From Bradyrhizobium jicamae (GTDB taxonomy: Bacteria; Pseudomonadota; Alphaproteobacteria; Rhizobiales; Xanthobacteraceae), in assembly GCF_018130695.1 (NCBI RefSeq), contig NZ_JAFCJX010000017.1, positions 62,001-126,000 of the forward strand: a DNA stretch of 64,000 nt. Reading direction: 5' to 3'. Numbering within the stretch: position 1 is the first letter of the stretch; every line of letters begins with the position of its first letter. The position numbers and the translations under genes are program-made. The notes under the pieces were generated by a model. It ran no database searches and was not told the origin of the DNA. It worked only from the letters and a program-made list of their open reading frames with translations. Below, one piece after another: positions 7,827-40,970 of this stretch.

Positions 7827-7831
7827 TTCCC

Positions 7832-13592: not shown

Positions 13593-13611
13593 TTCGTCAC
13601 CATAAAACAGT

Positions 13612-13659
13612 ATTGACACCATGATGTCAATCGACTAATGTGGTTAATAGTACCACATT
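13612..13659. promoter_or_regulatory. Two palindromes: probable MarR operators
   Basis: Site 1 (13612-13631) has perfect arms ATTGACA and TGTCAAT around 6 bp. Site 2 (13637-13659) has perfect 8-bp arms AATGTGGT and ACCACATT around 7 bp. Both lie between the divergent starts of marR (13592) and the ABM gene (13692). The arms differ between the two sites, so they may bind two different regulators or one may be an RNA structure. Confidence 0.65.
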
Positions 13660-13691
13660 GACAACATGAAGCCAAATTGCCGGAGATGACC

Positions 13692-14060: not shown

Positions 14061-14097
14061 CTCGCCCCACACCCCGCTCGTAAAAGGGAGATTCGCA

Positions 14098-14634: not shown

Positions 14635-14779
14635 CGTTCGCGAAGCGCCCGCAACGGCGATGGAATCGGGTTTTCTAAATCGAGGCGTCCTGCTTGCCGC
14701 CATGGAAGATTGGATATCGTGCCGCTTAGTCACACCGAGTGATTAGCCGACGACAGATCTTTGAACCAGGAGAGAAACG

Positions 14780-21296: not shown

Positions 21297-22856
21297 TCAC
21301 GAGCGGCAACAGTTGAGACGCTCCGCGAGCTCCAAAAGATTGGGCTCCAGCCTGTCTGGCGTCTCCATTGCGGAATGGATGTAGAAGTCGGGCCTCACGA
21401 TCACGGCGATCAACCCGTTGGCCTCGAAATACCTCTCATACGTGCCGTCGACATCTTCCATTTCGCTGCCTGCGCCGAAATGCACGATCTGGAGTCCCAA
21501 CCGGTCAATCACCTGCGTTGCTCTCGCGCTGATGAATTCGGACAAATCGAGCCTGCAGATCAACTGCCAACCCGTTCCCAAGAAGTCATCGGCGCGCTTG
21601 ACAAGGAGATTCTTCCGTACGCGGCCCTGGGGGCCCAATTGCCCCACGACAGAGGCCTCGCCTGCCGTTGGGGTGGACATGAGGAGCCCATCCACAAGCG
21701 CCGGCATGGGAGGCGATGGAAGCTTCTGGCCGGATAGGAGTGCCTTGTCCCTAGCCGCAGCAGCGGCCGGATCCGTCGTGCAGCTTATTCTGCCGACTTC
21801 CATCGACAGCCTGATGTAATCCGCCACATGTGGCTTCCGCTCCGCGCAATACGTATCGAGCAGGGATTCCGGTGCCCGGCCCGAAACAACGAGCTGCATC
21901 TTCCAAGCCAGGTTTGCCGCGTCACGGATCCCCGAGCACATCCCCTGCCCCATGAAGGGAGGCATGACGTGGGCCGCATCGCCGGCGAATAGCACTCTTC
22001 CTGCACGCCACCGATCCAGAAGCTTGGACTCGAATATATAGGTGGCTTGCCTGATCAGCTCGACATCATCCTCGCGAACCCAAGGCGCCACGAGTGACCA
22101 CGCCGTCTCGGTTCGCTTTGCCCATTCCTCCTCGCCGGGCATCACCATGTAGGAAAATCGGCGATGTTCTTTACCGAGCTGAAACAGGCACATCGGCCGC
22201 GCCGGATCGCAAATCTGCGCATTCTCATACGGCAGCGATAGTGAACGCTTCTCCTTGAAGTCGACAACCAGCCAAGGCTGACTGAAGCCGAGATCTTGCC
22301 ACTCAAGTCCGAGAAAGCGGCGCACAAAGCTGTTGCCGCCATCGCAGGCGACGAGATACTTGGCGGTCACTTGTCGTGTCTCGCCAGCCGCGCCAGTGCT
22401 TTTGCCAGCAACATCGCGCACGGTAAGTTGAACGTGGTCGGGATGTTGAACCACGCCAACAGCTTCCCATCCATGATTGACGGTGACGCGGCCGGTGCTG
22501 CGGACCGCGGCATCCAGCGCATCCTCAACATCCGGCTGAAAGATCAGGAAGTCGGACGGCCAGCCGGAGACTCCGTCGGCATTCCATTCGAAATTGATCA
22601 AAAGCTCGCCGGCGGCATTGCGCCACTCGTATGTATTGGATCTGACGGCAGTCTTCTCCACGGCCTCCGCACATCCAATCGATTGAAAGATGCGCATGAT
22701 TTCATGGTCGATATGGCCGGCCCGGGGGAGCGCGTACAGCGAGGGATAGCGTTCATAAACGCCCACATTGCAGCCGAGCTTGCCGGCCAGCGCAGCAAAG
22801 GTCTGGCCAACGGGACCATACCCTACCAATAGAATGTCGTGGTCGATCGTGGTCAT
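21297..22856 (-). CDS. FAD-dependent aromatic hydroxylase, MhpA-like (module B, copy 1)
   Basis: The ATG at 22856 gives TTIDHDILLVGYGPVGQTFA; the frame extends to 22937 but would cross the operator motif. The 519-residue flavoprotein shows the GxGxxG fold (residues ~12-17), LPRAGHIDHEIMRIFQSIG typical of MhpA relatives, the DG motif ACDGGNSFVRR near 170 and GDAAHVMPPFMGQGMCSGIRD near 290. It hydroxylates a phenolic ring with NAD(P)H and O2. It is a paralogue of 29542-31218. The shared 21-bp motif sits 63 bp upstream of its start. Confidence 0.9.
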   Translation of the reverse strand: MTTIDHDILLVGYGPVGQTFAALAGKLGCNVGVYERYPSLYALPRAGHIDHEIMRIFQSIGCAEAVEKTAVRSNTYEWRNAAGELLINFEWNADGVSGWPSDFLIFQPDVEDALDAAVRSTGRVTVNHGWEAVGVVQHPDHVQLTVRDVAGKSTGAAGETRQVTAKYLVACDGGNSFVRRFLGLEWQDLGFSQPWLVVDFKEKRSLSLPYENAQICDPARPMCLFQLGKEHRRFSYMVMPGEEEWAKRTETAWSLVAPWVREDDVELIRQATYIFESKLLDRWRAGRVLFAGDAAHVMPPFMGQGMCSGIRDAANLAWKMQLVVSGRAPESLLDTYCAERKPHVADYIRLSMEVGRISCTTDPAAAAARDKALLSGQKLPSPPMPALVDGLLMSTPTAGEASVVGQLGPQGRVRKNLLVKRADDFLGTGWQLICRLDLSEFISARATQVIDRLGLQIVHFGAGSEMEDVDGTYERYFEANGLIAVIVRPDFYIHSAMETPDRLEPNLLELAERLNCCRS

Positions 22857-23617
22857 GCCCTCACCCAAGCAGCAAGAAATGGTGTCGCTTCCGTCCGTGA
22901 TGGATTGTGATCTGTCGATCATCTCTGATGAAGTCATCAGTCACATAGAGGTGGGCCTCTGTCAAGAATTTGTTGTGCAGCTTCTTTGGTGGGTTTTGCG
23001 CCTGTTAGCACGGGCGAAACGTGTGGCGTTGAAGACCACTCCTCTGTCGAACCGACGAAACGCTGCAGGCCACGCAACGGCCTGACCGTGCGGCGGGCCA
23101 TGGCCGCTCAGACAAACGACAACTTCTTGGCTTAGTGCCCCATCGAAATGGCCCCAAGTGTGTGGTTTGCTGCAGAGCTCACTGAAGAGTTGGCGCCGGG
23201 TGGGTACGCGGGAAATGCGTCGCACAGGCTATCGTCATCGGCGGCGATGGTCATCGGTTCGCTGACCAGGTTGCGATCGGCCGACCTCGATTGGAGCGCC
23301 TCGCCAGCCGGCCCGGCGCCGGGCGCCGCTACTTTATCTCCTGTGCCACACGCTCCGGATGGCCTCGAGCTCTGATCCTCGACGGGACCTTCGGCACATG
23401 CCATGTGCCCTTTTGGAGATGGAGAGCAGGTGTGCGTACTGGCTTGTTCAACCTGGCTGCCCGAGCGGGCACGCAACCCAAGCCACGCCGGTCCGGCGCT
23501 CGGTGCCGGGGCGATGGCATGACGGGCCGATGGCGGCATGGCAGCGGAACTCGACTGACGCCAGCGAGCGAACCAGTTGAACCGCGGCGGTAAGCTCGTC
23601 TGAGAGCTCCAAGAGCG
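22857..23617. other. Large intergenic region with one operator copy
   Basis: About 760 bp separate two genes of the same strand. The only feature I support is the regulatory motif at 22919-22939. The remaining frames show no recognisable protein; the sequence from 23250 is very GC-rich and irregular, possibly the scar of a lost gene or insertion. Confidence 0.5.
22919..22939. promoter_or_regulatory. Module-B operator motif, copy 1
   Basis: The 21-bp motif is TCATCTCTGAT followed by five bases and CATCA. It contains two overlapping palindromes: TCATC-TCT-GATGA and TGATGA-AG-TCATCA. The same arrangement occurs at 26653-26673, 32439-32459 and 37197-37217, always upstream of a module-B gene. It lies 63 bp before the start of the hydroxylase at 22856. 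Confidence 0.7.
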
Positions 23618-24481
23618 TCAGGACGACGTTCCGAACTGGACGATGACTTGGCGCTGCTCGCCGAGCCCCTCGATGCCCAATGTAACAACGTCTCCTGCCT
23701 TCAGGAATTTTGGAGTGGGTTTGGCACCAAGTCCCACGCCCGGCGGAGTTCCGGTAACAATGACGTCCCCTGGCTGCATTGCCATGAACTGTGAGCAATA
23801 CCAAACGAGATACTTCGCGCTGAAGATCATCGTCTTCGTATTGCCGCGCTGACGCCGCTCTTCATTGACATCGAGCCACATATCGAGATTTTGGGGATCC
23901 TCAACCTCGTCGGCCGTGACGAACCATGGCCCGATCGGCCCAAACGTCACGCAACTTTTGCCCTTGCTCCACTGTCCTCCAGATCGGTCGATCTGAAAGG
24001 AGCGCTCGGACACATCATTGTGGACGAAGTAGCCTGCAATGAATTCCTTCGCGTCTTCCTCGGATGGTATGTTGGATGCCGGCTTTGCGATCACGATGCC
24101 AAGTTCGACCTCATGATCGAGCTTGGTCGATGACTGGGGCAGAATCGTATTGTCGTTCGGTCCGCAGATGCAGCCTGTATGCTTGAGAAAGATGATGGGC
24201 TCGCTTGGAATGGGCATGCCCGACTCCTTCGCATGGTCCGAGTAATTCAGACCGACCGCGATCATATTCCGGACATTTCCAACGCAGGCCCCAAGGCGCG
24301 GGTTTCCCTTGACGATCTCCAAGGCCTCAACTGAGGCGGATCGAATTTTGTCGATCCCACCGTTCGCGATCATCTGACCGTCGATGTCATCAACGACAGA
24401 CGATAGGTCTCGAATATTTGCAGCCGCGTCGATAATTCCCGGCCTCTCGCGGCCGATCAGGCCATACCGAACGAGCTTCAT
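23618..24481 (-). CDS. Fumarylacetoacetate hydrolase family protein (module B, copy 1)
   Basis: A 287-residue FAH enzyme from ATG 24481 (GAGAGG upstream; the longer frame to 24517 overlaps the dioxygenase gene). Core motifs: AVGLNYSDHAKESG, LDHEVELGIVI with E-x-E ligands, HNDVSER with the Asp ligand, and GDVIVTGTPPGVG. It would cleave or convert the ring-fission product made by the dioxygenase 32 bp upstream. Paralogue of 5932 and 28578. Third gene of the decarboxylase operon. Confidence 0.88.
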   Translation of the reverse strand: MKLVRYGLIGRERPGIIDAAANIRDLSSVVDDIDGQMIANGGIDKIRSASVEALEIVKGNPRLGACVGNVRNMIAVGLNYSDHAKESGMPIPSEPIIFLKHTGCICGPNDNTILPQSSTKLDHEVELGIVIAKPASNIPSEEDAKEFIAGYFVHNDVSERSFQIDRSGGQWSKGKSCVTFGPIGPWFVTADEVEDPQNLDMWLDVNEERRQRGNTKTMIFSAKYLVWYCSQFMAMQPGDVIVTGTPPGVGLGAKPTPKFLKAGDVVTLGIEGLGEQRQVIVQFGTSS

Positions 24482-24513
24482 CTGTGCCTCTCGAAGAACA
24501 TAAGCATTTACCG

Positions 24514-25476
24514 TCAAGCGTTGGGAGATTCGTAATTGAAGGCAAAATCAGCTGGAACCTCTGGTCCCCAGAGATAGAAGGAGTCGTCGGGAGGATAATC
24601 GCCCGCGCTCCATTCCGCGTTGGCTGAAATGTAGTCGATATCGCACGAATACTCGGAGTAACTCCCCCACGGATCCCGCACGTAGTGGAAGAAATTCGAT
24701 CCGAGGACATGACGTCCCAGCCCCCATCCTTTCGCGTAACCCTTTCCGGCCATGTTCATAGCGCCAAGACCGATGTCATCGATACTGCCTACATCCCAAC
24801 TGCAGTGATGCAGTCCCGGAGAGTCGGATTTGACGAACGCGAGAAGGTGATGGTCGCTCCCGTGAATGCCGTGCATGAATGCGACAATGTCGGCGGATCG
24901 ATCCGACAACCGCAGACCCAGGTTCCGGCTGTAGAAGCCGAGCGCTTCATCAATGTCGCTGGTAAAGATCAGGATGTGCGACAGACGCCGCGGCCGCCCT
25001 TGCCGAGCGTTCTGACGTGTCGGCGCCCGGCCAACAGATGGCAGCGCGTCTGGCCATGTTGCGACGCTTTTGGTGTCGGGGGAGGATTTGGGTGCGCTCC
25101 TCACCTCGATCAATACGTTGTCGTGGCCGCGGAACCAGAAGCCTTCATTTTCGAAGCCGGGCGGAGGGTCAACAAGCCTGACGCCATTTCCCTCTATTCT
25201 GGCTCTCAGTCGCTGCACATCTTCGGGGAAACATCCGAACGAGAGGTGATGAAGCTGTTTACGCGCGCTTTCGACGACGGCGCCCCATCGGTGCTCGTGG
25301 CCGAATGTTCGCAGCGCAAGGGCATTGCTCTCATTGGAGACCTCCAGACCGAAGGCGTGATAGAATGTCGCTGCTTCGGCAACATCCGGTACTCCGAGCA
25401 CGAATTCGTGGAGCGAGTGGACGCCGAGGTCTCCAGCCCTAGCGCTGCTGCTAACGTGGCCGCCAATTGCCGTCAT
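24514..25476 (-). CDS. Extradiol ring-cleavage dioxygenase, VOC superfamily (module B, copy 1)
   Basis: A 320-residue protein from ATG 25476 (CGGAGA upstream). The two VOC domains align end to end with the module A dioxygenase at 6867. Likely Fe(II) ligands are His in RRLSHILIFT, His in GLHHCSWDVG and Glu in SYSEYSCD. Extradiol cleavage with O2 of a dihydroxy or trihydroxy aromatic is expected. It lies between the decarboxylase (48 bp upstream) and FAH (32 bp downstream), so decarboxylation, cleavage and hydrolysis are encoded consecutively. Confidence 0.87.
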   Translation of the reverse strand: MTAIGGHVSSSARAGDLGVHSLHEFVLGVPDVAEAATFYHAFGLEVSNESNALALRTFGHEHRWGAVVESARKQLHHLSFGCFPEDVQRLRARIEGNGVRLVDPPPGFENEGFWFRGHDNVLIEVRSAPKSSPDTKSVATWPDALPSVGRAPTRQNARQGRPRRLSHILIFTSDIDEALGFYSRNLGLRLSDRSADIVAFMHGIHGSDHHLLAFVKSDSPGLHHCSWDVGSIDDIGLGAMNMAGKGYAKGWGLGRHVLGSNFFHYVRDPWGSYSEYSCDIDYISANAEWSAGDYPPDDSFYLWGPEVPADFAFNYESPNA

Positions 25477-25524
25477 GCGATTCTCCGGGAGTTGAAGGTA
25501 GCGCAAACCATCGGGCCGACGATC

Positions 25525-26490
25525 CTAGTCCAATTGGAAAAGCTTAACGGCATTTGTCCGGCCGATTTTTTCCCGGTCCCGTTCACTGATCGCCGCGCTC
25601 TCGAACCATTCCGTAGCCTCACTGACTTGCTCGAACGGATAGTCGGTTGAGAAAAGGATACGATCCGCTCCAACCTCCAGAAGTGAGTTGACGAGCGATT
25701 GAGTCCTGAAGTTTCCGGCCGTGGTGATGTAAAAATTCTCGGAGAAATACTCCGACACCTTCTTCTTGGCCGGGTATCCGAGCGGCGACCACGCGATGCG
25801 TTGGTCGATACGGTAAAGCGTAAAGGGCAGAGCCTCGCCGAGATGACCCAGTATGATCTTCAAGGCAGGAAATTTGTCGAAAAGCCCACTGCCCATCAGC
25901 CGTAGGGCATGAAGCGCCGTTTCCGAGCCAAACCCATATGCCGGGCCAATCAACCAGGGGTGCCCGACATAGGCCTTTCGCTCACTAGGCTCGCGTGGAT
26001 GGAGGTAGAACGGCACGCCCAGGCGTTCAACCACCTCCCAGAAGTCCCAATAGGGCTTCACGTCGTAATACACTGCCTCCGACGTCGGACCAACTTGCGA
26101 ATAGCCATTTACGAGCGCGCCTTTGAAGCCGAGTTCGTGGACACAACGGCTAAGCTCCAACGACGCGGCTTGTGGATCTTGCATGGGCAGCGCCGCAAGT
26201 CCCTTAAAGCGTCCGCCGCTCTTCGCAATCTCGGCTGCGAGGATGTCATTGGCTCGCCGCGCAGTTTCTGCGGCCGTCCGATGGTCCGAGATCGCTTGAA
26301 TGGCCGGGCTATTGAGGGAGAGGATCATCACGGCGATGCCGTGCTTATCCATTTCGCGGATGCGCATGTCCCGGATATCGAGCAGCCTGGCACGAAGATC
26401 CTGCCATGTCTCCGGCCCTACAAAGTTCTGGGAATCTCCCAGCGTTTCTTCGAGAGCAAAGTGCTCTTCGAGTGCGACCTTGTCCTTCAT
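25525..26490 (-). CDS. Amidohydrolase-family aromatic acid decarboxylase, gamma-resorcylate decarboxylase-like
   Basis: The ATG at 26490 follows GGGGGAAG and gives KDKVALEEHFALEETL. The 321-residue TIM-barrel protein matches the 2,6-dihydroxybenzoate (gamma-resorcylate) and 2,3-dihydroxybenzoate decarboxylase family along its length. Metal ligands fall at family positions: Glu8 and His10 in the EEH motif, His164 in FYLHPRE and Asp283 in ILFSTDYPFE (Asp287 in the characterised Rhizobium enzyme, from memory). Further hallmarks are MILSLNSPA, ALVNGYS and LGHLGE. It removes CO2 non-oxidatively from a hydroxybenzoate, giving resorcinol, catechol or a related phenol. The substrate cannot be separated within this family by eye. 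First gene of the operon, divergent from tetR. Confidence 0.88.
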   Translation of the reverse strand: MKDKVALEEHFALEETLGDSQNFVGPETWQDLRARLLDIRDMRIREMDKHGIAVMILSLNSPAIQAISDHRTAAETARRANDILAAEIAKSGGRFKGLAALPMQDPQAASLELSRCVHELGFKGALVNGYSQVGPTSEAVYYDVKPYWDFWEVVERLGVPFYLHPREPSERKAYVGHPWLIGPAYGFGSETALHALRLMGSGLFDKFPALKIILGHLGEALPFTLYRIDQRIAWSPLGYPAKKKVSEYFSENFYITTAGNFRTQSLVNSLLEVGADRILFSTDYPFEQVSEATEWFESAAISERDREKIGRTNAVKLFQLD

Positions 26491-26652
26491 CGCTATCTTC
26501 CCCCCGCCTGCCACATCAACAAGCCCGCGATTCCGCCGCGCTTCATACGAGCGGCTTGCGCACTCTCTTCGGAACGACACCGAAACGAATGCGCACGCTT
26601 ACGTCACGAGGCGCCTTCATCCGCAGTGACCCGCACCTTTTGGACTCCTATA

Positions 26653-26673
26653 TCATCTCTGATATCGTCATCA
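26653..26673. promoter_or_regulatory. Module-B operator motif, copy 2
   Basis: A copy of TCATCTCTGAT-N5-CATCA, with the second palindrome imperfect (TGATAT-CG-TCATCA). It is in the 254-bp gap between the decarboxylase start (26490) and the divergent tetR start (26745), 72 bp before the latter. This is the position expected for autoregulation by the TetR protein. Confidence 0.72.
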
Positions 26674-26744
26674 AACATATAATGCTTCTGTCGCCATCAA
26701 AAATGTGGCATGACCGTTCGCAACCTTTGTTGCGGAACCGAGTC

Positions 26745-27479
26745 ATGGCAACCAAAAGAACAATTTCCGACCGCGCGCCTCAGAAGCGAAAGCAGGTTGA
26801 TGTGCGAAAGCAGCCTGCTGCAAAGGTCAGGAGATCTGACCGCACGCGTATGCAGACCAAGATGAAGCTGGTGCTGGCTGCCCAAGCGGTGATGGCGCGG
26901 GTGGGAGTCGAACGCGCGACGATTGCCGAAATTGCCGAGGAAGCGGATGTTGGGTTTGGCAGCTTCTACAATCACTTCACGTCGAAAGAAGAGATTGCGC
27001 TTGCCGTGTTCCAGGCGCAGACGGAAGATCTGGCCAAAGTATTGGAGATGGCGCATGAGGGGGTCACCGACGCTGCATTGGTTGTCAGCTATGTGCAACG
27101 CTTGATCATAAGGAAGGCGCACCTCGACCCGATATGGGGCTGGTTTATCGTTCGTGCGGAAAGCGCGCTTCCGCAAATGCAGAATACGTTCAAGGAACGA
27201 GCAGCCGCAACGCTTCGGGCCGGCATTCGAGAGCGGCGGTTCTCGATCCCCGATGTCGACGTCGCCATCGCCATTACGCTGGGCGGATTGGTTGGCGTCA
27301 TCCGAAACATGCTGACCAGCGATCTGTCTGACGCAGTGGGTGCGAAATTCGCCGAGCTAATGTTGAGGCTCTATGGGATCTCCGCCAAGGAGGCGAGCTC
27401 GATTGCGTCCCATCCCCTGCCTCATAGGCTTCAGTCGGCACTTGAGGTCCTGACGCACAAGCCCTCTCAGGCTTCCTGA
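26745..27479 (+). CDS. TetR family regulator, candidate controller of module B
   Basis: A 244-residue protein; ATG 26745 is the likeliest start because the longer frame crosses the operator. A basic N-terminal tail (KRKQVDVRKQPAAKVRRSDR) precedes the HTH TIAEIAEEADVGFGSFYNHFTSKEEIALAVF (about residues 62-92). The C-terminal ligand domain is typical in length. It diverges from the decarboxylase operon across a copy of the shared motif, making it the best candidate repressor for the whole module. The ligand is presumably a pathway aromatic. Confidence 0.88.
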   Translation: MATKRTISDRAPQKRKQVDVRKQPAAKVRRSDRTRMQTKMKLVLAAQAVMARVGVERATIAEIAEEADVGFGSFYNHFTSKEEIALAVFQAQTEDLAKVLEMAHEGVTDAALVVSYVQRLIIRKAHLDPIWGWFIVRAESALPQMQNTFKERAAATLRAGIRERRFSIPDVDVAIAITLGGLVGVIRNMLTSDLSDAVGAKFAELMLRLYGISAKEASSIASHPLPHRLQSALEVLTHKPSQAS

Positions 27480-27537
27480 CCGAACAATCCCGACACGCGG
27501 CGCTGTCGCGGCGGATCATAAGACTTTCTGGGTCTGA

Positions 27538-27572
27538 GCGCGCTTGCAATCGAATCTCACTTGCAAGCGCGC
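27538..27572. terminator. Bidirectional hairpin between convergent genes
   Basis: A perfect 12-bp inverted repeat, GCGCGCTTGCAA and its complement, separated by 11 bases, lies between the end of tetR (plus strand) and the end of the dioxygenase gene at 27643 (minus strand). No long T-run follows on either side, so it is a terminator by position rather than by full consensus. Confidence 0.6.
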
Positions 27573-27642
27573 CCATCAGCCTCAAATGCTTTGCCGCGAT
27601 GAGCAGCAGCGCTCAGCGCAAAGCCGATCCCTTACCAGACGC

Positions 27643-28566
27643 CTAGCCTTCCAGCATGGTGTGGGGCGCCTCGATACCCCATTGGTTGGCCGCGGCCAAG
27701 CCCGGTGGCCAGACCTTGGGACGCTGCGGAACTTCTTCGTGCCAGGGCCGTGGCTCGAAATAGCCGAGATCCTCGTCGTGGATCCGATCTATCTCAGTGA
27801 ACAGCTCAACAATGTGGCCGTCGGTGTCGCGGTGATAGGTGAAGATATTATGGCCTACACCATGCCGCCCGGGACCCCAAAGCAGCGGAATGTGTTGCTT
27901 TCCTAACGTCTCACATGCCGTCTGCACATGCGCCCAGTCCTTCAATTCGAATGCGACGTGATGCATTTTGTCGGTCTTGCCACGGACGAAGTTCACTGTG
28001 TGATGATCCGGGCTGCAGCGGAGGAACGCAAAAAAATCACCGATCCAGTCCGACTCACGGAATCCGAGCACGTCGACATAAAACCTGACAATCTTATTCA
28101 CGTCCGTGACACTGAAGGCGACGTGACCGAGCTTTTCTGGTCCAATGCCGCGCGAGGCCACCTGGCCGCTCCGCGCTGTGCGCTTGGCGAATACTTCGAT
28201 ATTGGTGCCTTTGGGGTCCTTGAAATGCAGGCTCGTGTTGATTGAAGGATTTGCGTCCTGGCGCAATTCCGCGGCGATCCCCTGTGCCTGCACCAGCTTA
28301 TGCAGCGCCCCGAGGTCTCCCTCCTCGGGAGAAATCTGGAAACTCAGCCCGTTGCATTGAGTTTGCGCGCCTGGCTTGAGGACGACGCAATAGTCCTGTG
28401 ACGATGCGCCGAGATAGACGGCATCGGGGGTTCGTTCCACAACTGATAGACCGATCGTGTCGACGTAGTAGCTCAAGAGACGCTCGATGTCTGGCGTTTC
28501 AAAGATAATGTCGGCCAGGCGCCGGGTTCGGGTGGCATTGTTGGGCTTAGTCGCAGCGAGATACAT
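27643..28566 (-). CDS. Catechol 2,3-dioxygenase-like extradiol dioxygenase (module B, copy 2)
   Basis: A 307-residue VOC protein with GAGGAAAT before the ATG. The catalytic domain triad is His in KLGHVAFSVTD, His in KMHHVAFEL and Glu in HIVELFTEID, in the spacing of classical type I extradiol enzymes; YHRDTDGHIVELFTE is close to the catechol 2,3-dioxygenase signature. It is a different subgroup from the two paralogues at 6867 and 24514, so module B has two distinct ring-cleavage enzymes. Last gene of the cupin-lipocalin-hydroxylase-FAH operon. Confidence 0.88.
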   Translation of the reverse strand: MYLAATKPNNATRTRRLADIIFETPDIERLLSYYVDTIGLSVVERTPDAVYLGASSQDYCVVLKPGAQTQCNGLSFQISPEEGDLGALHKLVQAQGIAAELRQDANPSINTSLHFKDPKGTNIEVFAKRTARSGQVASRGIGPEKLGHVAFSVTDVNKIVRFYVDVLGFRESDWIGDFFAFLRCSPDHHTVNFVRGKTDKMHHVAFELKDWAHVQTACETLGKQHIPLLWGPGRHGVGHNIFTYHRDTDGHIVELFTEIDRIHDEDLGYFEPRPWHEEVPQRPKVWPPGLAAANQWGIEAPHTMLEG

Positions 28567-28577
28567 GATTTCCTCGT

Positions 28578-29525
28578 TTAAGAGCTTGCTGGTGGTTGGG
28601 TAGGTCTGGGTTTGATCTTGGTGGTCAACTCTCCGATCCGTTCAATTTCGATTCGAACTTCTTCGCCGCCCCGCAGCGACGTGCCTCGAGCAATTCCAAC
28701 GCCGGCCGGCGTACCGGTGGCGATGATATCTCCGGGGAGCAGTGTTAGCCGCGTGCTCAGAAATGCGATCTGCTCAGCAATGGTGAAGATCATTTGGCTC
28801 GTATTCGACTCCTGCATGATGACCCCATCGACCCATAAGCGGATCGGCATGTCGTATACATCGCCAACATCACGCAGCAGCGTGATCCACGGGCCAACGG
28901 GCTTGGCGCCCTCGAAGCATTTCTGAGACATCCAATCCCAATGGAATGGAAGGCTTACTGGCACATTGGCGCGCCGGCTGTGATCCCGGGCAGAGAGATC
29001 ATTGACAATGGTCAAGCCCGCGACATGACTCATTGCGGTATCGACCGAAACATTGCGTGCCGGCCGTCCAATGACGGCACCGAGCTCGGCCTCCCAGTCC
29101 AATGTTGCCGCGTAAGCGGGAATTTCGATTGCGGCGTTCGGTCCAACGATCGAGTGCGCCGGCGTTGCGACAAAGTGCCAGGGCGCATCGTTCTCTTTAT
29201 TTGAGCTGGCAGGAATGCCAAGTACGCGCGCCATTTCTTCGACGTGATCGGCATAGTTCGCACCAGCACAGAACATGGCGCGCGGATACAATATTGGGGC
29301 CAGCAACTCGGTTTGTGCAAGCGGTCCCACCGAACCGGCATCAAACGATGCGCTTCTCAGAAGCGTCTCGGTGAGGTGCCAGTCCTCGAAAACGGAAAGC
29401 AGATTCGACGATCCGGGAATGCCGAGAACCGATTGCAAATCAAACACGGATTCCGAGCGTATGGCGCAGGCACGTGGGCCACTCGGAGATCGATAAGAAC
29501 CCAGACGAATGGTGCTGTCGGTCAT
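28578..29525 (-). CDS. Fumarylacetoacetate hydrolase family protein (module B, copy 2)
   Basis: A 315-residue FAH enzyme, 11 bp upstream of the dioxygenase and 16 bp downstream of the hydroxylase. Motifs: CAGANYADHVEEMAR, LDWEAELGAVIGRP with E-x-E ligands, VNDLSARDHSRR and GDIIATGTPAGVG. It probably cleaves or converts the ring-fission product within this operon. It is the most diverged of the three short FAH proteins in the window. Confidence 0.88.
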   Translation of the reverse strand: MTDSTIRLGSYRSPSGPRACAIRSESVFDLQSVLGIPGSSNLLSVFEDWHLTETLLRSASFDAGSVGPLAQTELLAPILYPRAMFCAGANYADHVEEMARVLGIPASSNKENDAPWHFVATPAHSIVGPNAAIEIPAYAATLDWEAELGAVIGRPARNVSVDTAMSHVAGLTIVNDLSARDHSRRANVPVSLPFHWDWMSQKCFEGAKPVGPWITLLRDVGDVYDMPIRLWVDGVIMQESNTSQMIFTIAEQIAFLSTRLTLLPGDIIATGTPAGVGIARGTSLRGGEEVRIEIERIGELTTKIKPRPTQPPASS

Positions 29526-29541
29526 GATGCGGCCTTTTTCA

Positions 29542-31218
29542 CTATTGTGCTTTGCTTGGAGAGGACACGTTCAACAGCTGCCGCTCCAAGTATGCGACGA
29601 GCGCAATCGCCTCCTCAGAGGACGAGAATACGCCGTAAACGTAGCTATCTGGACGTATCAGCACGCCTCGGCAGCCGCGCTCTTCAAACCAGCGGAGTAA
29701 TTCGCCGCTACAGTCGAGGAGTTCGCCGGCGAGCTCGGGTAGCATCGAATCCTGGGATAGAACCGTAAAGCAATCGAGCTTGACCTGATCGCGCAGCGAG
29801 CTTGGCGGCTCTACGCCTTCAATCGACAGATCCGTTGCAGCAAGCAACACGAAGCCGCGGCTCGTGAAGTCGTCGAGCAGCCGGCGCTGGCCGCGATGAT
29901 CGACCATGGGAGGTTGGATAAACCGCTCGCCGACCGCATTGTTCTGCGCGTGATTGGACGCAATTATCCCATCAGCAAGCCTGGGAATGATGTCGATCTG
30001 GGATGCGGCAGCGCCTTGCATCTGCTCCCTCATGACGGCATCCCGGTTGCGAGCCACCTCGCGATCCAGGGTACACATGAAGCGCCCCATGCGAATCGAG
30101 GTCTCGACAACACTTCTAACCTGCGGGAGGCGCTCGAGCGGATAACTCGATAGAAGGCTTGGCGACGCAGCTCCATCGAGCACCATACGCAACTTCCAAC
30201 TCAGATTGGCTGCGTCGCGGATGCCATGGCAAAGGCCTTGACCAAAGAAGGGAGGTGTTTGGTGAGCTGCATCGCCCAACAGAAGCACTCGGTCTGATTT
30301 CCATTTGGTCGCGAGCAGGGCATGGAAGCGATAGACCACGCAACGGATGAGGCGATAGCTGACGTCACGTAACCATGGAGCGAGTAGCCCCTTGACGCGA
30401 TCCTCACGGCAAAACTCCTCGGGCTTCTCTCCTGGAAGAAGCATGAACTCCCAACGACGATACGATCGGGGGCCTGGAATGACAGACGTGGGGCGGGCTG
30501 GGTCACCGATTAGGAACACCAATCGCTGCAGATCGATGTCGTGTGGAAGGCCCTGGACGTTAGGAATCCGAATGGGACCGTCCACGGTCGCGTCGGCGAC
30601 GATCCATGATTCGTCGAAGCCGAGATCTTCGAGTTCGATCCCGACCGACTTCCGGACGATGCTGCGAGCACCATCGCAGCCAAAGACATATGAGGCCGAG
30701 ACCTCGACTTCGTCATCAATCACGACGCTGACTGACCCACCATGCGGACGAACGGCGGTCACCTTGCAACCGAGCCGAACGTCAACCGACTCCCGCAGCG
30801 CCAGCTGCTCACGCAATACCGCGTCCAGTTCCGGCTGATAGAAGAAGTAGTCGGAAGACCAGCCCAGGCGATCGCTCGTAACATATCGTTGAAGCGGTCG
30901 TGTAATCGCCAAATCTGCTCCGAAATGCACGCCGCCGGCAGCTGTTGCGAGTTTTGGCAACAGCGGCTCAGCCAACCCGACAGACTGCATAATCCGCATG
31001 ATCTCGTGATCAATGTGGATCGCCCTCGGGAGGTCATAGGGACCGGCCTCTTTCTCGATGACCAATGTCGAGATGCCGCGCGCGCCTAGTAGATGCGCGC
31101 AAACGGCCCCCACGGGTCCAAGACCGACTATGATGACGTCGTAGTGGTCGCCTCGTCGGCGCTGAGCATCCTGACTTCCGTCGATTTTCGCATCCTCACT
31201 ATGGACGGACGTCGGCAT
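29542..31218 (-). CDS. FAD-dependent aromatic hydroxylase, MhpA-like (module B, copy 2)
   Basis: Start ATG 31218 is preceded by GGGAG; upstream codons overlap the lipocalin gene. The 558-residue flavoprotein carries DVIIVGLGPVGAVCA, LPRAIHIDHEIMRIMQSVG, the DG motif GCDGARSIVRK and GDAAHQTPPFFGQGLCHGIRD. It resembles 3-(3-hydroxyphenyl)propionate hydroxylase (MhpA) in overall layout. The start overlaps the lipocalin-like gene by 20 bp, suggesting coupled translation. Expected to supply the vicinal diol for the dioxygenase two genes downstream. Confidence 0.9.
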   Translation of the reverse strand: MPTSVHSEDAKIDGSQDAQRRRGDHYDVIIVGLGPVGAVCAHLLGARGISTLVIEKEAGPYDLPRAIHIDHEIMRIMQSVGLAEPLLPKLATAAGGVHFGADLAITRPLQRYVTSDRLGWSSDYFFYQPELDAVLREQLALRESVDVRLGCKVTAVRPHGGSVSVVIDDEVEVSASYVFGCDGARSIVRKSVGIELEDLGFDESWIVADATVDGPIRIPNVQGLPHDIDLQRLVFLIGDPARPTSVIPGPRSYRRWEFMLLPGEKPEEFCREDRVKGLLAPWLRDVSYRLIRCVVYRFHALLATKWKSDRVLLLGDAAHQTPPFFGQGLCHGIRDAANLSWKLRMVLDGAASPSLLSSYPLERLPQVRSVVETSIRMGRFMCTLDREVARNRDAVMREQMQGAAASQIDIIPRLADGIIASNHAQNNAVGERFIQPPMVDHRGQRRLLDDFTSRGFVLLAATDLSIEGVEPPSSLRDQVKLDCFTVLSQDSMLPELAGELLDCSGELLRWFEERGCRGVLIRPDSYVYGVFSSSEEAIALVAYLERQLLNVSSPSKAQ

Positions 31219-31705
31219 CCACTCGCTCCCACACCAACTCACTCGTACTGATTTTCCCGTCTGTCGGCGTCGGTATTGCCCCGGTCGAAAGGATGACGCG
31301 ATTGCCTTCACGCCGAACCGACCTGACTGCGTCGGTTCCCGTCAAGATCCCGTTCCAGGATGCATCGATGTGGTGAATGACCGTCTTTCCATCGAAATCG
31401 TAAGTGCCGCTATAGGCCGCCATCGAGTCGAACAGCGCCGTGCGCTGGGTGTCGTTCATCGTCGCGAAGGTTAACCGCGGCCTGTCGCTACGTACGATCA
31501 AGACCATCATGCGGCGTTCCTTGCCGTAGATGATGTAGCCGACCGGATTCTTGCCGAAGCTATCCTCGACTTCGCCAGTCGCAACGATCGTGCGGGTCGC
31601 GGCGACAAGGCGGTAGGTCCCTTCGAGCGTTTCGGCGGCAAAGGTCTCCACGCTTGAGCAGAGCACAAGCGCCAAACCAACGGACAACAACCAGAACCGG
31701 TTCAT
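31199..31705 (-). CDS. Exported lipocalin-like domain protein
   Basis: A 168-residue protein with a Sec signal peptide (RFWLLSVGLALVLCSSVETFA) followed by a lipocalin-like beta-barrel domain: LEGTYRLVAATR, NPVGYIIYGKERRMMVLIV, YSGTYDFDGKTVIHHID. The family is known from fungal and bacterial clusters and may bind small hydrophobic molecules. Here it sits between an exported cupin and a hydroxylase in one operon, so a periplasmic substrate-binding or conversion role is a reasonable but unproven guess. Confidence 0.75.
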   Translation of the reverse strand: MNRFWLLSVGLALVLCSSVETFAAETLEGTYRLVAATRTIVATGEVEDSFGKNPVGYIIYGKERRMMVLIVRSDRPRLTFATMNDTQRTALFDSMAAYSGTYDFDGKTVIHHIDASWNGILTGTDAVRSVRREGNRVILSTGAIPTPTDGKISTSELVWERVDADVRP

Positions 31706-31716
31706 GGAGACTCCTT

Positions 31717-32352
31717 TCAGGAGAGGGGCTGAGCGTCGATCAGCACGAAGGCAAGCGACGCGGGCTGCTGCGATCGGTTGACCCAGGAGTGGCTCGTTCC
31801 ACGCTGGACGAGAACATCGCCCGGCTTCATCAGAACTTCGCCGGAATCGACAAGCGCGTAGATCTCGCCGCTGAGCATGACGACGTAGTCGGTCGTGTCG
31901 GTGACATGAGATCCGGCAGCGCGGCCGGAGGCTTTTCCCTTTGCGAGCGCCGCCGAAATTCCTGAATCATCAGCATGCGCCGCGGTTGCGGGCGACGCCG
32001 CCTCTGGCGCCGTCTGCGGCAGGAAGGTCAGTATTCTGAAGACCGACCCGTTCTTTGGCGGCATAAGGCGAAGCGGGGAATCGGTTGGATCGGCCTCCCC
32101 GCGATTGCTGCTCGGTGCCGCATCGGTGGACCACAGTTCGGTGATGACGACCCCCTCGCGACGATAGACGTGAGGCGCGGCGGTATCTTTCGCGATCAGG
32201 GAACGGCCATTGCCGTCTATTCCAGTGATGATACGCCTGACCCCGCCAGGGGCTGGCTGGCGATCCTGCGCGCTCGCGACCGCGGGCAGCCAGGCGCCGA
32301 GACCCAAGAGGCCTCCCCATTTGAGAAATTGCTGACGGTTAATCGAAGTCAC
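31717..32352 (-). CDS. Exported cupin-domain protein
   Basis: The start is GTG 32352, after a very strong GGGAGGGGAG; this yields a signal peptide with INRQQFLKWGGLLGLGAW. The 211-residue protein ends in a cupin barrel: DYVVMLSGEIYALVDSGEVLMKPGDVLVQRGTSHSWVN, with His and Glu positions able to bind a metal. It may be a small periplasmic binding protein or dioxygenase-like enzyme. First gene of a five-gene operon; the shared 21-bp motif lies about 87 bp upstream of the start. Confidence 0.78.
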   Translation of the reverse strand: MTSINRQQFLKWGGLLGLGAWLPAVASAQDRQPAPGGVRRIITGIDGNGRSLIAKDTAAPHVYRREGVVITELWSTDAAPSSNRGEADPTDSPLRLMPPKNGSVFRILTFLPQTAPEAASPATAAHADDSGISAALAKGKASGRAAGSHVTDTTDYVVMLSGEIYALVDSGEVLMKPGDVLVQRGTSHSWVNRSQQPASLAFVLIDAQPLS

Positions 32353-32750
32353 TGATCTCTCCCCTCCCTTGGTCCTCCGATCGCCTGCGGGGCAGGTGAC
32401 GTAGCGCATATCCGATGCAAAGTAGATTGATGTTCTACTCACTTCTGATTAACTTATCAGTGTTGAAATTGACCCGCAAGGCCGAATTGATTCTCTCCGC
32501 CCCCCGCCGAGAAACCTCCCATGAATTTGGACAGGGATTCACTTGAAGTCTCGGACCTCAGGCAAATGAGAACCATCGCCGCGACCGGCGCTCTCATATC
32601 CATTCGGGACCGGCATAGGCCTGAACATCGGCTGTGGCCCGGTCGATCTCCAAGCCGATTTGTCGAGTAGCGCGTTTTCGCACAAGCACCGAATAATCCG
32701 GATCTCAGAACAAGAAGCAACCCAATTTGTCCAAGGTGGAGGAGTAACTC
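32353..32750. other. Divergent intergenic region, cupin operon / GST
   Basis: About 400 bp hold the module-B motif copy at 32439-32459 and no recognisable gene. The frames across it are unlike any protein I know. Confidence 0.45.
32439..32459. promoter_or_regulatory. Module-B operator motif, copy 3 (degenerate)
   Basis: This copy matches the 22919 copy at 16 of 21 positions, including the TCTGAT core and terminal ATCA, with T/C changes at positions 4-5. It is upstream of the cupin-lipocalin-hydroxylase-FAH-dioxygenase operon. Confidence 0.55.
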
Positions 32751-33410
32751 ATGAACGCGACGCAAAAGCGATCAGACCAGATTACGTTGTATATGTGCCC
32801 GGACTCGTGCTCCCGTGTGACGATCAACGCGCTCGAGGAAGCTGGACTCGACTACGATCTTCGCTTGATCGATTTATTGGCAAACGAGCAACGTTCGCCC
32901 GCCTACCTCGCGGTGAATCCCAAAGGCAAGGTGCCTGCACTGACGTACGGAGATCATCTTCTGACGGAGAATCCCGCCATCCTGCATTGGATCGATCGGC
33001 ACCGGCCGCAAGCGAGGCTTTTGCCACCTGGTGAGGGCGCTCCGATTGAGCACGGCCTTATGGACCTGATCTGGTGCTCGTCCACACTTCACCCGATGGT
33101 CCGACAGATCCACCTGCCATCTCGTTTCACGGATGGCGAAACGGAAGGGATCAAGCGCGACGGTTTGAAGAAGTTCGATCTCGAAGTGCAAAGAATCGCC
33201 GATCGCCTGGCGGGACAAGACTGGTGGTACGGAGATCATTGGTCCATCGTGGATGTTTACTTGCATTGGCTTTACAACATCGCCGCCAGCGGCGGCTTTC
33301 CCTTGGATGCGTATCCGTCTCTTCGCGACCACGCCCAGCGCGTCAGTTGCCGAGCCAGCTATGCGCAGAGCTTGGAGCGGGAGCGTAGTGCCTCGCGCGG
33401 GCCATCGTAG
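32751..33410 (+). CDS. Glutathione S-transferase
   Basis: A 219-residue GST with GGAGGAG before the ATG. The thioredoxin-fold N-domain shows ITLYMCPDSCSRVTINALEEAGLDY, where the second Cys aligns with the conserved Cys of beta-class GSTs, NPKGKVPAL and TENPAILHWI for glutathione binding, then an all-helical C-domain. GSTs in aromatic clusters conjugate or isomerise (for example maleylpyruvate) or remove glutathione. Either detoxification or isomerisation is possible here. Confidence 0.85.
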   Translation: MNATQKRSDQITLYMCPDSCSRVTINALEEAGLDYDLRLIDLLANEQRSPAYLAVNPKGKVPALTYGDHLLTENPAILHWIDRHRPQARLLPPGEGAPIEHGLMDLIWCSSTLHPMVRQIHLPSRFTDGETEGIKRDGLKKFDLEVQRIADRLAGQDWWYGDHWSIVDVYLHWLYNIAASGGFPLDAYPSLRDHAQRVSCRASYAQSLERERSASRGPS

Positions 33411-33495
33411 TTTCGACGTACGATATCATTGATCAGAGCGCGTTCGCAGATGACGCTACACGGCAGACATCGTGGGCGCTTCAGGGGGAGAGAAG

Positions 33496-34386
33496 ATGTC
33501 GGCAAAATCCGCCTTAAATCAGTTCATTCGACAACAGCGAGAAGCAAAGCTTGATGCAGATCGCATATTGGAGCTCTTGAGTGAAGAGATTACCTTATTT
33601 GCGGTACGGGGAAGCGCCCCTCAACAGAAGGGGCATGTTCAGAGCGTACTTCCCAACGAGAATGCTCAAAACCAGGCCGCTCTTGCAGAACTCCTTAACA
33701 TAACTGCCGGAGCCGTAGTCAAAGCCGGCGAGGCCATATCTTCCGCCATCCACTCATGCGGCTCAATTGAGAGCGGATGCCAATCGGCAGCCAACTCATC
33801 GGGGGCTATTGGGATATCGATCACCGAGATTTCCGCGCAGGCGAAATCCGCTTCCGAAACAATCGATCAAATAGCCGAAGCCATCAAGCTGGCGCTATCG
33901 AATTCGGCGACGCTTGCAACGGCTGTTGAAAAAATATCCTCTGTCATGACCCTCATTCGGAAGATTGCCGGGCAGACCAATCTATTGGCTCTTAATGCAA
34001 CAATCGAGGCGGCGCGAGCCGGCGATTTGGGACGAGGCTTTGCCGTCGTCGCGAGCGAAGTGAAGGCACTCGCGAACCAGACATCCAGCGCCACCGAAGA
34101 CATCGCTTTGCAAATTTCCCAAATCCAGAACGCATCACGCGACTCGCTTCATTCGGTCGAATCCATCGCTTCCGACATTGATGGCATGAGCGTAAAATTG
34201 CGGGCAATCGCGTCTTCGGTTGGATACCAAGAGGCTTCGACGAACCAGGTCGTGTCCGGGCTCGACGTTTGCACGGCAGGGCTCGGTGAACTGCGCAATG
34301 CTCTTGCAAGCATCGAAAAAGGGATTGTTATGGGATCCGAAAGGGCGGGCAAGATGCGTACGCTCTTTCATGAGCTGACTGAGTGA
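33496..34386 (+). CDS. Soluble methyl-accepting chemotaxis-like protein
   Basis: The ATG at 33496 follows GGGGGAGAG; an in-frame GTG at 33472 is less likely. The 296-residue protein has no TM segment. After an N-terminal region it is a long coiled coil with the signalling hairpin tip [39 protein letters not shown] (about residues 160-200). It would interact with CheA/CheW in the cytoplasm. It is short for an MCP, with no obvious ligand-binding domain, so it may sense metabolic state. Location beside catabolic genes suggests taxis to the substrate. Confidence 0.82.
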
Positions 34387-34495
34387 GAGAGCGCTGCTCA
34401 TAGTCGCGACCTCGCCAGCGCCGATAGCTCGGAGTTTTTTCAGCGACTGACGTCACGCATTCGCAAGCGAGTGCACCCAGAAAGCTACAAGCGCC

Positions 34496-35848
34496 CTAGA
34501 GCGCTTTCGCGCTGGGACTTTCTCGATCTGTCAAAAGGCGGCCGGCAAATCGCCTGCGAGCAATGATCGCCAACATTACCGCGCTTAGCGTCGCGATCGC
34601 GAAAGGACATGCAGCAACGATATAGACCGTCTCTACAGAGTAATTCCTCGCAATGAGCAGACCACCGAGGATTGGCCCGAGAATGGCACCAAGCCTACCG
34701 ATACCTAGGGCCCAGCCAGCTCCGTTCGCACGTATGGCTGTGGGATAGATCATGGTAGCGACGGCGTTTAATCCAAGCTGAGCTCCCAATACGAAAAATC
34801 CGGCAAGCAGCGCAACCGGCATCAACAGCGCGCTCGAGCCACTTACCGCCGCGTATCCGATGGTTCCGGTTGTCAACACCGCGCCGCCGAAGAACAGGTT
34901 AAGCGGCGAGAGCCCCCATCGATCCGTTGGTCGAGCTATGCAGACGCCTCCCACAATGCCACCGATTTGGAAGCTGGACAGGGCCAATGCGGCATTGGCG
35001 TCAGATACTTTCGCGGCAACGAGTAGGATTGGCGTCCAGCTCATCAGAAAGAAATACCCCATTAGGCTGCTGACAAACAGCAGCCACAGCAGGGGGGTGA
35101 CCCACTTGAGACCGTCCTTGAACAGTGAACTCACCGAGGCTGCTGCGCCTCTTAGGCCGTCCTTAGGGGCGTTGCCAGGGGACCTTCCGGACAGTTCGCC
35201 CATCCGTCCTTTCGCAGACTTGGAAATGTCTAAGTATTTGGCTGATTCTGGTAGCCACAACCAGCAAGAAAAGGAAGCGGCGAGCGGCAGGACGCCGCCT
35301 ATCAGAAAAAGGACGCGCCAACCGTAATCGGGAACAAGCGCGACTGTTAGCGGACCGGGGAGAGCCCCTCCCAAAGCCGTACCAATGTACATCAGGATAA
35401 TCATCGTCGCCCGATAGCGGGAAGGCGCGTATTCTGCATTGAGAGCCGACGCATTTGGGAGTAGTCCGCCCAATCCTATACCCGTCAAGAAGCGCAAAGC
35501 TCCGAGTTGCCCAATTGACTCCACGAGCATCATCGCGAGCGTGCAAACGCCGAATAGAGTGCAAGATAGGATGATTGCCGGCTTTCGCCCGAACCGATCG
35601 CCAATCCAGCCGACGGAAGGTGCTCCCACAAGCATGCCGGCTAGGCTTGCGACAAACACGGAAGAGAAGGCCGACTTGTCGGGTATCTGCCACGCTTTCG
35701 CGAGCTCCGGGGCGACGAAGCTAAGAGCCGTGATGTCGTAACCGTCGAGCAGCGTCAGCACGGAGGTCAAAAGGAGCAGACGCACATGAAAACGGGTGAT
35801 GCCGCGGTCAGAGTCTATTTGCAGCACTTCGGTCGAGGCTGAAGTCAT
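34496..35848 (-). CDS. MFS aromatic acid:H+ symporter, AAHS family (module B)
   Basis: A 450-residue 12-TM permease with GGAG before the ATG. TM1 has the AAHS hallmark DGYDITALSFVAPEL; loop 2-3 has GDRFGRKPAIIL; the TM8-11 region shows IYPTAIRANGAGWALGIGRLGAILGP. It imports an aromatic or heteroaromatic acid with H+. It follows the alpha/beta hydrolase gene by 50 bp and probably shares its transcript. Confidence 0.9.
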   Translation of the reverse strand: MTSASTEVLQIDSDRGITRFHVRLLLLTSVLTLLDGYDITALSFVAPELAKAWQIPDKSAFSSVFVASLAGMLVGAPSVGWIGDRFGRKPAIILSCTLFGVCTLAMMLVESIGQLGALRFLTGIGLGGLLPNASALNAEYAPSRYRATMIILMYIGTALGGALPGPLTVALVPDYGWRVLFLIGGVLPLAASFSCWLWLPESAKYLDISKSAKGRMGELSGRSPGNAPKDGLRGAAASVSSLFKDGLKWVTPLLWLLFVSSLMGYFFLMSWTPILLVAAKVSDANAALALSSFQIGGIVGGVCIARPTDRWGLSPLNLFFGGAVLTTGTIGYAAVSGSSALLMPVALLAGFFVLGAQLGLNAVATMIYPTAIRANGAGWALGIGRLGAILGPILGGLLIARNYSVETVYIVAACPFAIATLSAVMLAIIARRRFAGRLLTDRESPSAKAL

Positions 35849-35898
35849 CGAATTCTCCGCTACATCGTATCACTGGTATTGTCACAGCACGCGCTGCA

Positions 35899-37083
35899 TC
35901 AGTCTCGGAGACCAAGCCTCTCACAGAACCAATCCGCGACTGCGGTGTTTCGTTCGTCAGCATGGTTGTAGATGCAATGGTCGCCGTCTTTCCAAACAAG
36001 CAGCGTCTTGTCATCTGAAGCCGCTTGATCATGGATCAGCCTCGCATTGTCGAGGCTGAACACAGTATCGATCTCGCTGTGGAGTTGCAGCAGGGGAGTA
36101 CGAAGGCTGCCGAGTGAAGCTGTCAGATCCAACGCGTTGAGAACCGCCCTCGCCTGGTCATTGCACGAACTTCCAATCATCGCCTCGACCTTGCTGAAAA
36201 AGCGCGGATATCGTTCGGGAAACTCCAGCGGTCTACTTGCACCGCAGTTGACGCAGCATGCGGCAAGACGCTGGTCGGCGATCGCCGCGTTAGCGACCAA
36301 GCATCCCCCAAAGCTATTTCCAAGAATCCCGATACGGCCGCTCACCCTGGGGTCTTCAAGAAGAGCATCGACGATGCGCGAGAAGGCCCGATGGACGTCG
36401 CTGGTTAGATACAGATGGTGGAAAAGCCTCGTCTCGCCTTGCCCGGGCACGTCGATGAGCAGGGCCGCGATGCCGCGCTCGACAAGCGCCAGCGCGGCGG
36501 GATGATGCTCTTCTCGCCAACCATCAAATCCTCCCAGAACAATGACGACAGGTGAAGATTCCGACAATGGCGGCCGGATAAGCCAGCCGCAGAGTTTTCC
36601 TTCGTCGAAATCGACAGTCCAATGGTCGGTAGGACAATCATCGAGTGCCGCAGCCTCGGAGAAGGCAGCAATGAGGCGACCATAAAGCTCCTTCTTGAGG
36701 TCGGTATCGAAGGCAATCGCTGCTTGGGCGACCCTGAAACAGGCGGATGCCCAGCGAAAATACCTAAGGGCGGTCGTCCGGTGTCCTTTCTGCTTGGCCG
36801 CGCCCGCCAGCCTTAGGTTGCGCTCAGCCAACCAGCAGGCAGCTTCAACCCAATCGACCCCTACCGTCGCCATTGAGCGAAGCGTTTCCACGTCAGCGTA
36901 GGCCATTCCGCTGCTGAGCAGTCTGGATTGCGGCATCGCGCGCAGCAACGCATCAAGAGCGGCGCGCTCCTCGGGAGACAAAAGAACGGGGATTTTGGGT
37001 AGAGGTTCGGCTGAAGGATCGCAGGGGGTCGACCAGGATCCGCGCTTCCCAACGTCCAGGCCGATGTGCCGTTGATCTTGCAT
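35899..37083 (-). CDS. Alpha/beta hydrolase, 2,6-dihydroxypseudooxynicotine hydrolase-like C-C hydrolase
   Basis: A 394-residue alpha/beta hydrolase with a long helical N-terminal domain (about 1-155). The core has the oxyanion segment LGGFDGWREEHHP, the nucleophile elbow GNSFGG, an acid-region SEIDTVFS and the catalytic His in DGDHCIYNH. The size and layout fit the FrsA/dihydroxypseudooxynicotine hydrolase group, which hydrolyse a C-C bond next to a ketone on a hydroxylated ring. In this cluster it may cleave a side chain or ring-fission product. It is divergent from the outer-membrane protein gene. Confidence 0.75.
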   Translation of the reverse strand: MQDQRHIGLDVGKRGSWSTPCDPSAEPLPKIPVLLSPEERAALDALLRAMPQSRLLSSGMAYADVETLRSMATVGVDWVEAACWLAERNLRLAGAAKQKGHRTTALRYFRWASACFRVAQAAIAFDTDLKKELYGRLIAAFSEAAALDDCPTDHWTVDFDEGKLCGWLIRPPLSESSPVVIVLGGFDGWREEHHPAALALVERGIAALLIDVPGQGETRLFHHLYLTSDVHRAFSRIVDALLEDPRVSGRIGILGNSFGGCLVANAAIADQRLAACCVNCGASRPLEFPERYPRFFSKVEAMIGSSCNDQARAVLNALDLTASLGSLRTPLLQLHSEIDTVFSLDNARLIHDQAASDDKTLLVWKDGDHCIYNHADERNTAVADWFCERLGLRD

Positions 37084-37438
37084 TGTTCACCGTTCAATCG
37101 CTAACAAATGTGGCCCGGGAGATTTCGGCCGCGTGACAGCGCCCGTGTTGCTTCAAGTCGAGTGCAACAGCTCACGACGCGGGCTTGATGATGGGCTCAT
37201 CTCTGATGAGAACATCATTTTCGGCAGCTTCGTCAAGCAAAATGAAATTGACGCCGTCTCCGTGCGTCGACGAACCCTTGGCTGCGCCCTCGGTCTCGTC
37301 CGCTCCCGATGTTGTCCCTGTGACGCATTCGCCGCGCATTTGGCTTGGCCGGCGCAAGGTCTCGCCTTGACAGGAACAAAAATTCATGATGATCAGTTGC
37401 TCAAACTTGATAATGTCATCATCAATGAGGAACGCATC
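37084..37438. other. Divergent control region, alpha/beta hydrolase / outer-membrane protein
   Basis: A 355-bp region holding the motif copy at 37197-37217 and a looser half-copy at 37408-37421 (TGATAATGTCATCA) directly before the porin gene. The plus frame is open through it, but translation there resembles no protein and lacks an RBS, so I place the gene start at 37439. Confidence 0.55.
37197..37217. promoter_or_regulatory. Module-B operator motif, copy 4
   Basis: TCATCTCTGAT-N5-CATCA, with perfect overlapping inverted repeat CTCATC-TCT-GATGAG (37196-37210). It could control both the outer-membrane protein gene (plus) and the hydrolase-transporter pair (minus). Confidence 0.7.
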
Positions 37439-40959: not shown

Positions 40960-40970
40960 GTCGGTATCAG

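Follow-up and report, generated by a model that had tools for sequence, protein, structure and literature searches.

Which regulator owns the repeated, operator-like sequences that stand in front of a group of aromatic-degradation genes, and how far does its control reach? This question was raised by a stretch of 64,000 nucleotides from Bradyrhizobium jicamae (GCF_018130695.1, contig NZ_JAFCJX010000017.1, positions 62,001 to 126,000, forward strand), analysed as a whole and called the window hereafter. A preliminary description had linked four transcription units of one catabolic module, module B, by a 21-bp motif, TCATCTCTGAT-N5-CATCA, and had proposed a single regulon, probably under the TetR-family protein encoded from position 26745 (TetR 26745). 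The present analysis revealed six sites in the window, which we take, with a probability of about 0.8, to be bound by TetR 26745, a RolR-related repressor, as its operators and to control both catabolic modules of the island. The proposed single regulon is favoured by the confinement of the sites to the island, by the same operator spacing beside homologues of the regulator in other species and by a match to rolO, the operator of RolR.

In the window, the 21-bp motif was present in exact form at 22919, 26653 and 37197 and with mismatches at 3 of 16 positions at 32439, in agreement with the preliminary description, and the two overlapping palindromes reported for it, TCA-N4-TGA and TGA-N8-TCA, were confirmed. 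Eight matches with at most three mismatches were counted, compared to a mean of 0.61 and a maximum of 3 in 100 dinucleotide shuffles. The motif is real, but was rejected as the complete unit: it is a part of a 32-bp operator, TGAT-N6-(A/C)TCA-N4-TGAT-N6-ATCA, which consists of two 14-bp palindromes at a pitch of 18 bp. Position 37408, formerly seen as a partial copy, had to be reinterpreted as the middle unit of a three-unit array at 37390-37439. The connection of four module-B units held for the sites given, but a sixth, exact copy at 3350-3381 before the other module had been missed. All operators are listed in Table 1. The placement of all sites between genes depends on the start codons: the sites are intergenic with starts at 22856, 26490 and 32352, which we chose by the onset of family and PDB alignments together with a ribosome-site-like sequence, but sites touch the 5' ends of the longest possible open reading frames (ORFs) 21297-22937 and 31717-32442, and in the tetR frame an operator site falls within the longest ORF (26406-27479), upstream of the start at 26745.

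Chance or base composition had to be considered as the source of the repeats. The operators are AT-richer than their surroundings, with 28-44 % G+C compared to 59 % for the window, and the 21-bp pattern is common in the genome at three mismatches (59 matches in all). The motif counts in the whole genome covered 8,680,666 bases (8.68 Mb). A scatter at chance frequency, named beforehand as the refuting outcome, did not occur: the three exact copies of the 21-bp motif were the only exact ones in the genome, no site had one mismatch, and the next were three sites with two mismatches elsewhere. These were taken as background, judged from the ORF lists; the one on contig C12 overlaps the end of one ORF directly ahead of the next ORF. 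The exact 32-bp pattern, searched as TGATN7TCAN4TGATN6ATCA with 15 specified bases, was present in six frames, at 3350, 22908, 32428, 37186 and 37390 and on the opposite strand at 37408, all within the island. Outside the island, one place had one mismatch (C45:236554), and places with two mismatches were located on contigs C4, C12 and C45. Elsewhere in the genus (264 genomes, or 265 with its own), the exact 32-bp pattern occurred once, in G087, a genome not among the 16 of 265 with a match to PF21306, the C-terminal family of TetR 26745. The shuffles, the reversed-pattern, gap and arrangement controls and the single match in 264 related genomes contradict an origin by chance, which was rejected as having a negligible probability.

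TetR 26745 exceeded the curated cut-offs of both its families (PF00440 with 45.4 bits, cut-off 24; PF21306 with 79.2 bits, cut-off 27). Within the genus, matches at E 1e-20 or better were obtained in two of 265 genomes, its own and one at 31 % identity. Corynebacterium glutamicum alone among 14 control genomes contained PF21306, and a search of plasmids yielded four records, all below 60 % identity. Relatives were collected by one scan of public genomes, which gave 455 encoding stretches; the best 80 of these were retained and make up 75 loci (L031-L105). In many of the loci, genes for a hydroxylase, dioxygenase or FAH hydrolase resembling those in the window are present as well. The homologue set comprised 88 genes: 87 tetR-like genes from the 75 loci, selected by our own criteria, and L107 from genome G231, the own copy (L106) being excluded. 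As upstream region, 250 bp ahead of start codons picked by script were used.

With up to 4 mismatches in 16 positions, the 21-bp pattern was found in 48 of the 88 upstream regions; random segments taken from these loci gave 44 of 1,705, and shuffles 19 of 880. The arrangement TGA-N8-TCA-N4-TGA was exact in 61 of 88 regions versus 21 of 1,700 random segments and, extended by N8-TCA, in 32 of 88 versus 8 of 1,700. Variation of the gap from 0 to 12 gave 61 regions at gap 4 and at most 11 at any other gap; variation of the inner spacing from 4 to 12 gave 74 regions at 8 and no more than 27 for any other value. After a stricter redundancy cut, 39 of 63 regions had the exact arrangement, and four control arrangements were present in none or one. 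Among the 61 homologues with an exact site are members of Pseudomonadota, Actinomycetota and Myxococcota, and 55 of the 61 share an identical recognition-helix stretch, ADVGFGSFYNHF. Operator spacing and regulator are conserved jointly. A motif derived de novo from the upstream regions of the homologues in other species, TCAtaATTGACAAAATcATCAG, led back to the window: its top eight matches there all fall on the six operators. The input were the 68 non-redundant regions of the 88, with the window left out and the script set to skip regions that contained N or were shorter than 60 bases. Seven of the eight matches scored above the best of 20 block-shuffled windows (18.96), while the weakest, at 26653, scored 16.26 and exceeded 19 of the 20.

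The 32-bp pattern with at most one mismatch was present in six of seven homologue genomes, every listed place lying inside the tetR locus. In L031, with a TetR of 62 % identity, sites are located at tetR, ahead of cupin-lipocalin genes and ahead of a run of hydroxylase, hydrolase, transporter and decarboxylase genes; the operators stand on the same gene types as in the window. With RolR as query, 25 homologues were obtained in 24 of 397 genomes of the order of Lentzea, and 19 of the 25 had TGA-N8-TCA-N4-TGA upstream. The nearest RolR homologue of this set (L134, 48 %) has three tandem upstream units at a pitch of 18 bp, like the array at 37390.

The sites may have another owner: the MarR-family protein encoded at 2630-3091, one of two further PF21306 TetR proteins of the genome, or a regulator from outside the island. 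The MarR-family gene sits at the island edge. The two paralogues are encoded at C9:33224 (L121/L160), on the same contig 29 kb from the window, and at C15:26436 (L120/L159), and two TGA-N8-TCA palindromes precede the former, without the 21-bp arrangement. The operator, however, accompanies the homologues of TetR 26745 in other species, and the MarR-family gene has an inverted repeat of its own nearby; the two paralogues were rejected as owners, as the 350 bp upstream of each lack an exact 21-bp arrangement. A different owner is considered very unlikely.

Several observations weigh against the assignment of the six operators to TetR 26745. Operator 3, adjacent to tetR, is weaker than the other five: its left arm is degenerate, with GGAC instead of TGAT, and holds both of its 2 mismatches to the 32-bp pattern. 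Promoter-like hexamers were sought at all six operators; operator 1 overlaps such hexamers at 3332-3361 and 3349-3376, and none were present at operators 2-6. For 27 of the 88 homologues, the 250 bp upstream lacked the exact 21-bp arrangement, although the same recognition-helix stretch is present in 20 of them, so that the helix alone is no predictor of a site; for two of the 27, L034 and L035, sites lie at a distance of 0.75-0.9 kb. The seventh homologue genome, of Lentzea (L070), did not contain the 32-bp pattern with up to one mismatch. The 75 loci hold 177 exact 21-bp matches on both strands, of which 66 are more than 300 bp from any tetR start; some of these are other operators of the clusters, and some must be due to chance. 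The RolR-query set was also raised at gaps 7, 8 and 12 (9, 10 and 9 of 25), and near-copies were kept in it; it is thus the weaker control of spacing.

The nearest solved chain to TetR 26745 was 3aqs/3aqt (E 1e-31, residues 29-227 of 244), which is RolR, the resorcinol regulator of C. glutamicum (PMC3086911). Besides the similarity over these residues, both proteins share the C-terminal family PF21306. In the RolR-rolO system, the regulator gene is divergent from the resorcinol hydroxylase operon rolHMD, and resorcinol or hydroxyquinol releases RolR from the DNA. RolR is described to bind, as two paired homodimers, a sequence of 29 bp that contains TGAAC-N4-GTTCA and TTCAT-N2-ATGAA, and to repress by a roadblock (PMC9210681). 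These repeats correspond to TGA-N8-TCA and TCA-N4-TGA, hence rolO has the same spacings as the operators of the window, whose two-unit geometry would likewise suit two dimers. The half-sites differ, TGAT in the window and TGAAC in rolO, and the window has six operators instead of one, with more target genes. The two rolO repeats reportedly overlap. The operators of QacR and CgmR are also long (28 and 32 bp) and take two TetR-type dimers each (PMC9210681), but have other sequences and spacings, and a membership of the window operators is not claimed. A family-wide operator was not described in titles and abstract openings on RolR, rolO and RolR homologues.

The inducer pocket of TetR 26745, a feature missed by the preliminary description, is altered. 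Residues D94, R145, R148 and D149 of RolR align to E101, R152, A155 and T156, on which the alignments agree, so three of the four polar resorcinol-contacting residues are changed. D149 is conserved in 82 of the 88 homologues and the whole set of four in 59. Five of the six homologues without D149 belong to the same clade as the window (nine rows, support 100/100), and L057 is placed outside. In RolR, D149A has lost resorcinol binding and R148A retains 2.8 %; the recognition helices are 34.9 Å apart without and 30.4 Å apart with resorcinol (PMC3086911). The replacement of R148 and D149 by alanine and threonine indicates that the inducer is probably not plain resorcinol, and with the changed pocket TetR 26745 was classed as a RolR-related repressor, not as RolR. 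TetR 26745 could still be a plain equivalent of RolR that responds to resorcinol made by the decarboxylase of the island. RolR is its nearest solved relative, R145 is retained, and the regulated decarboxylase, an amidohydrolase, aligns over its full length to the gamma-resorcylate decarboxylases 3s4t/4qro and 2dvt (E 5.5e-138 and 3e-130). The product of gamma-resorcylate decarboxylase is resorcinol. We regard this equivalence as unlikely in view of the loss of D149, kept by nearly all homologues, of R148 and of D94, and of the binding defects of the RolR variants. The alpha/beta hydrolase of the window has 2,6-dihydroxy-pseudo-oxynicotine hydrolase (2jbw) as nearest solved relative, which is distant (E 2e-23). 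Together with the decarboxylase it suggests substituted resorcinols as substrates. Paper titles and abstract openings named no regulator of gamma-resorcylate gene clusters; PMC8222616, on IclR-family motifs, mentions the term three times and lies outside that check.

For binding, number of dimers, repression and induction we infer the following course. Each 14-bp palindrome TGAT-N6-ATCA would take one TetR dimer, with half-sites 10 bp apart, about one helical turn, and two units, in one case three, at 18-bp pitch would hold the dimers side by side in line. In the absence of the inducer transcription would be blocked, by a cover of the promoter at operator 1 or by a roadblock in the leader at operator 6; both modes are suggested by analogy. 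A compound of the pathway, probably a resorcinol-type aromatic other than plain resorcinol, would free the repressor, and its release would turn on both modules: the genes for uptake, decarboxylation, hydroxylation, ring cleavage and C-C hydrolysis, and also tetR. In our judgement the regulon is real and its kind is known, but it is arranged in a new way and probably has a different inducer. We lean towards a wider reading, in which a single operator grammar is common to the RolR-kind TetR proteins of three phyla: 14-bp units, TGA-N8-TCA, recur at 18-bp pitch and are bound through a near-constant recognition helix, while the clade of the window has rebuilt the resorcinol pocket (R148/D149 to A/T) with the spacing fixed. 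Six operators, each with two or three dimers, would then let one repressor govern both modules of the island, about 35 kb in all, with another aromatic compound as inducer. A motif seen by eye has thereby become a directly testable regulon with a named regulator, and the spacing rule allows operators of this TetR family to be predicted in other bacteria. The separation of what is fixed, operator spacing and recognition helix, from what changes, the inducer pocket, assists the search for inducers where aromatic-degradation clusters are uncharacterised, and the construction of sensors.

Table 1. Operators and genes of the proposed regulon in window coordinates
Feature	Position	Strand	Remarks
Operator 1 (new)	3350..3381	.	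exact TGAT-N6-ATCA-N4-TGAT-N6-ATCA, both strands; 157 bp upstream of ATG 3539, first gene of upstream module
Operator 2	22908..22939	.	contains 22919 copy; 51 bp upstream of probable hydroxylase start 22856
Operator 3	26642..26673	.	contains 26653 copy; 71 bp upstream of tetR 26745, 151 bp upstream of decarboxylase start 26490
Operator 4	32428..32459	.	contains 32439 copy; extra TGA at 32464; 75 bp upstream of probable cupin start 32352, 291 bp upstream of GST-like gene 32751
Operator 5	37186..37217	.	contains 37197 copy; 102 bp upstream of hydrolase start 37083; on the other side, upstream of outer-membrane protein gene
Operator 6	37390..37439	.	three 14-bp units at 37390, 37408 and 37426, pitch 18 bp; last unit ends on A of ATG 37439
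Upstream catabolic module behind operator 1	3539..15796	+	genes named in the text below
Flavin-dependent aromatic hydroxylase, PRK06183 subfamily	21297..22856	-	NF004829 2.7e-159, above cut-off
Decarboxylase, extradiol-type dioxygenase and FAH-family hydrolase genes	23618..26490	-	3s4t 5.5e-138; PF00903; PF01557
TetR-family repressor, proposed regulator	26745..27479	+	TetR_N PF00440 6.7e-12; TetR_C_40 PF21306 4.4e-22
Cupin, lipocalin-like, hydroxylase, FAH-family hydrolase and dioxygenase genes	27643..32352	-	family matches
Alpha/beta hydrolase and aromatic-acid MFS transporter genes	34496..37083	-	2jbw 2e-23; TIGR00895 1.7e-94, below cut-off
Outer-membrane protein, Phenol_MetA_deg family	37439..38434	+	PF13557 3.3e-27

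The gene tetR is divergent from the decarboxylase genes, which probably form one unit with the dioxygenase and hydrolase genes beside them; the genes from cupin to dioxygenase are probably another single unit. The upstream module codes for an MBL-fold protein, a FAH hydrolase, a dioxygenase, a hydroxylase, an MFS transporter, a 3-hydroxyacyl-CoA dehydrogenase, a second FAH hydrolase and a second MBL-fold protein, and no further exact 21-bp sites were found within it. Genes for hydroxylases, extradiol-type dioxygenases and FAH-family hydrolases are each present in more than one copy across 21297-32352 and 5932-13018. With several copies per enzyme type, the island may have parallel routes, each for rings with other substituents.

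Both flanks of the island showed further features. The region 38815-42507 contains a shortened LysR-like ORF of 168 aa, two overlapping ORFs (39246-39857 and 39767-41026) between which a serine-recombinase homologue is divided, and an LPD7 protein, and is perhaps the edge of a mobile element adjoining the island. At the other edge, ATAGGACCCTAT repeats are located directly upstream of the MarR-family gene (PF12802, 5.6e-12), which is divergent from a flavin monooxygenase gene at 1505-2599 with a likeness to Tet(X) well below the model cut-off.

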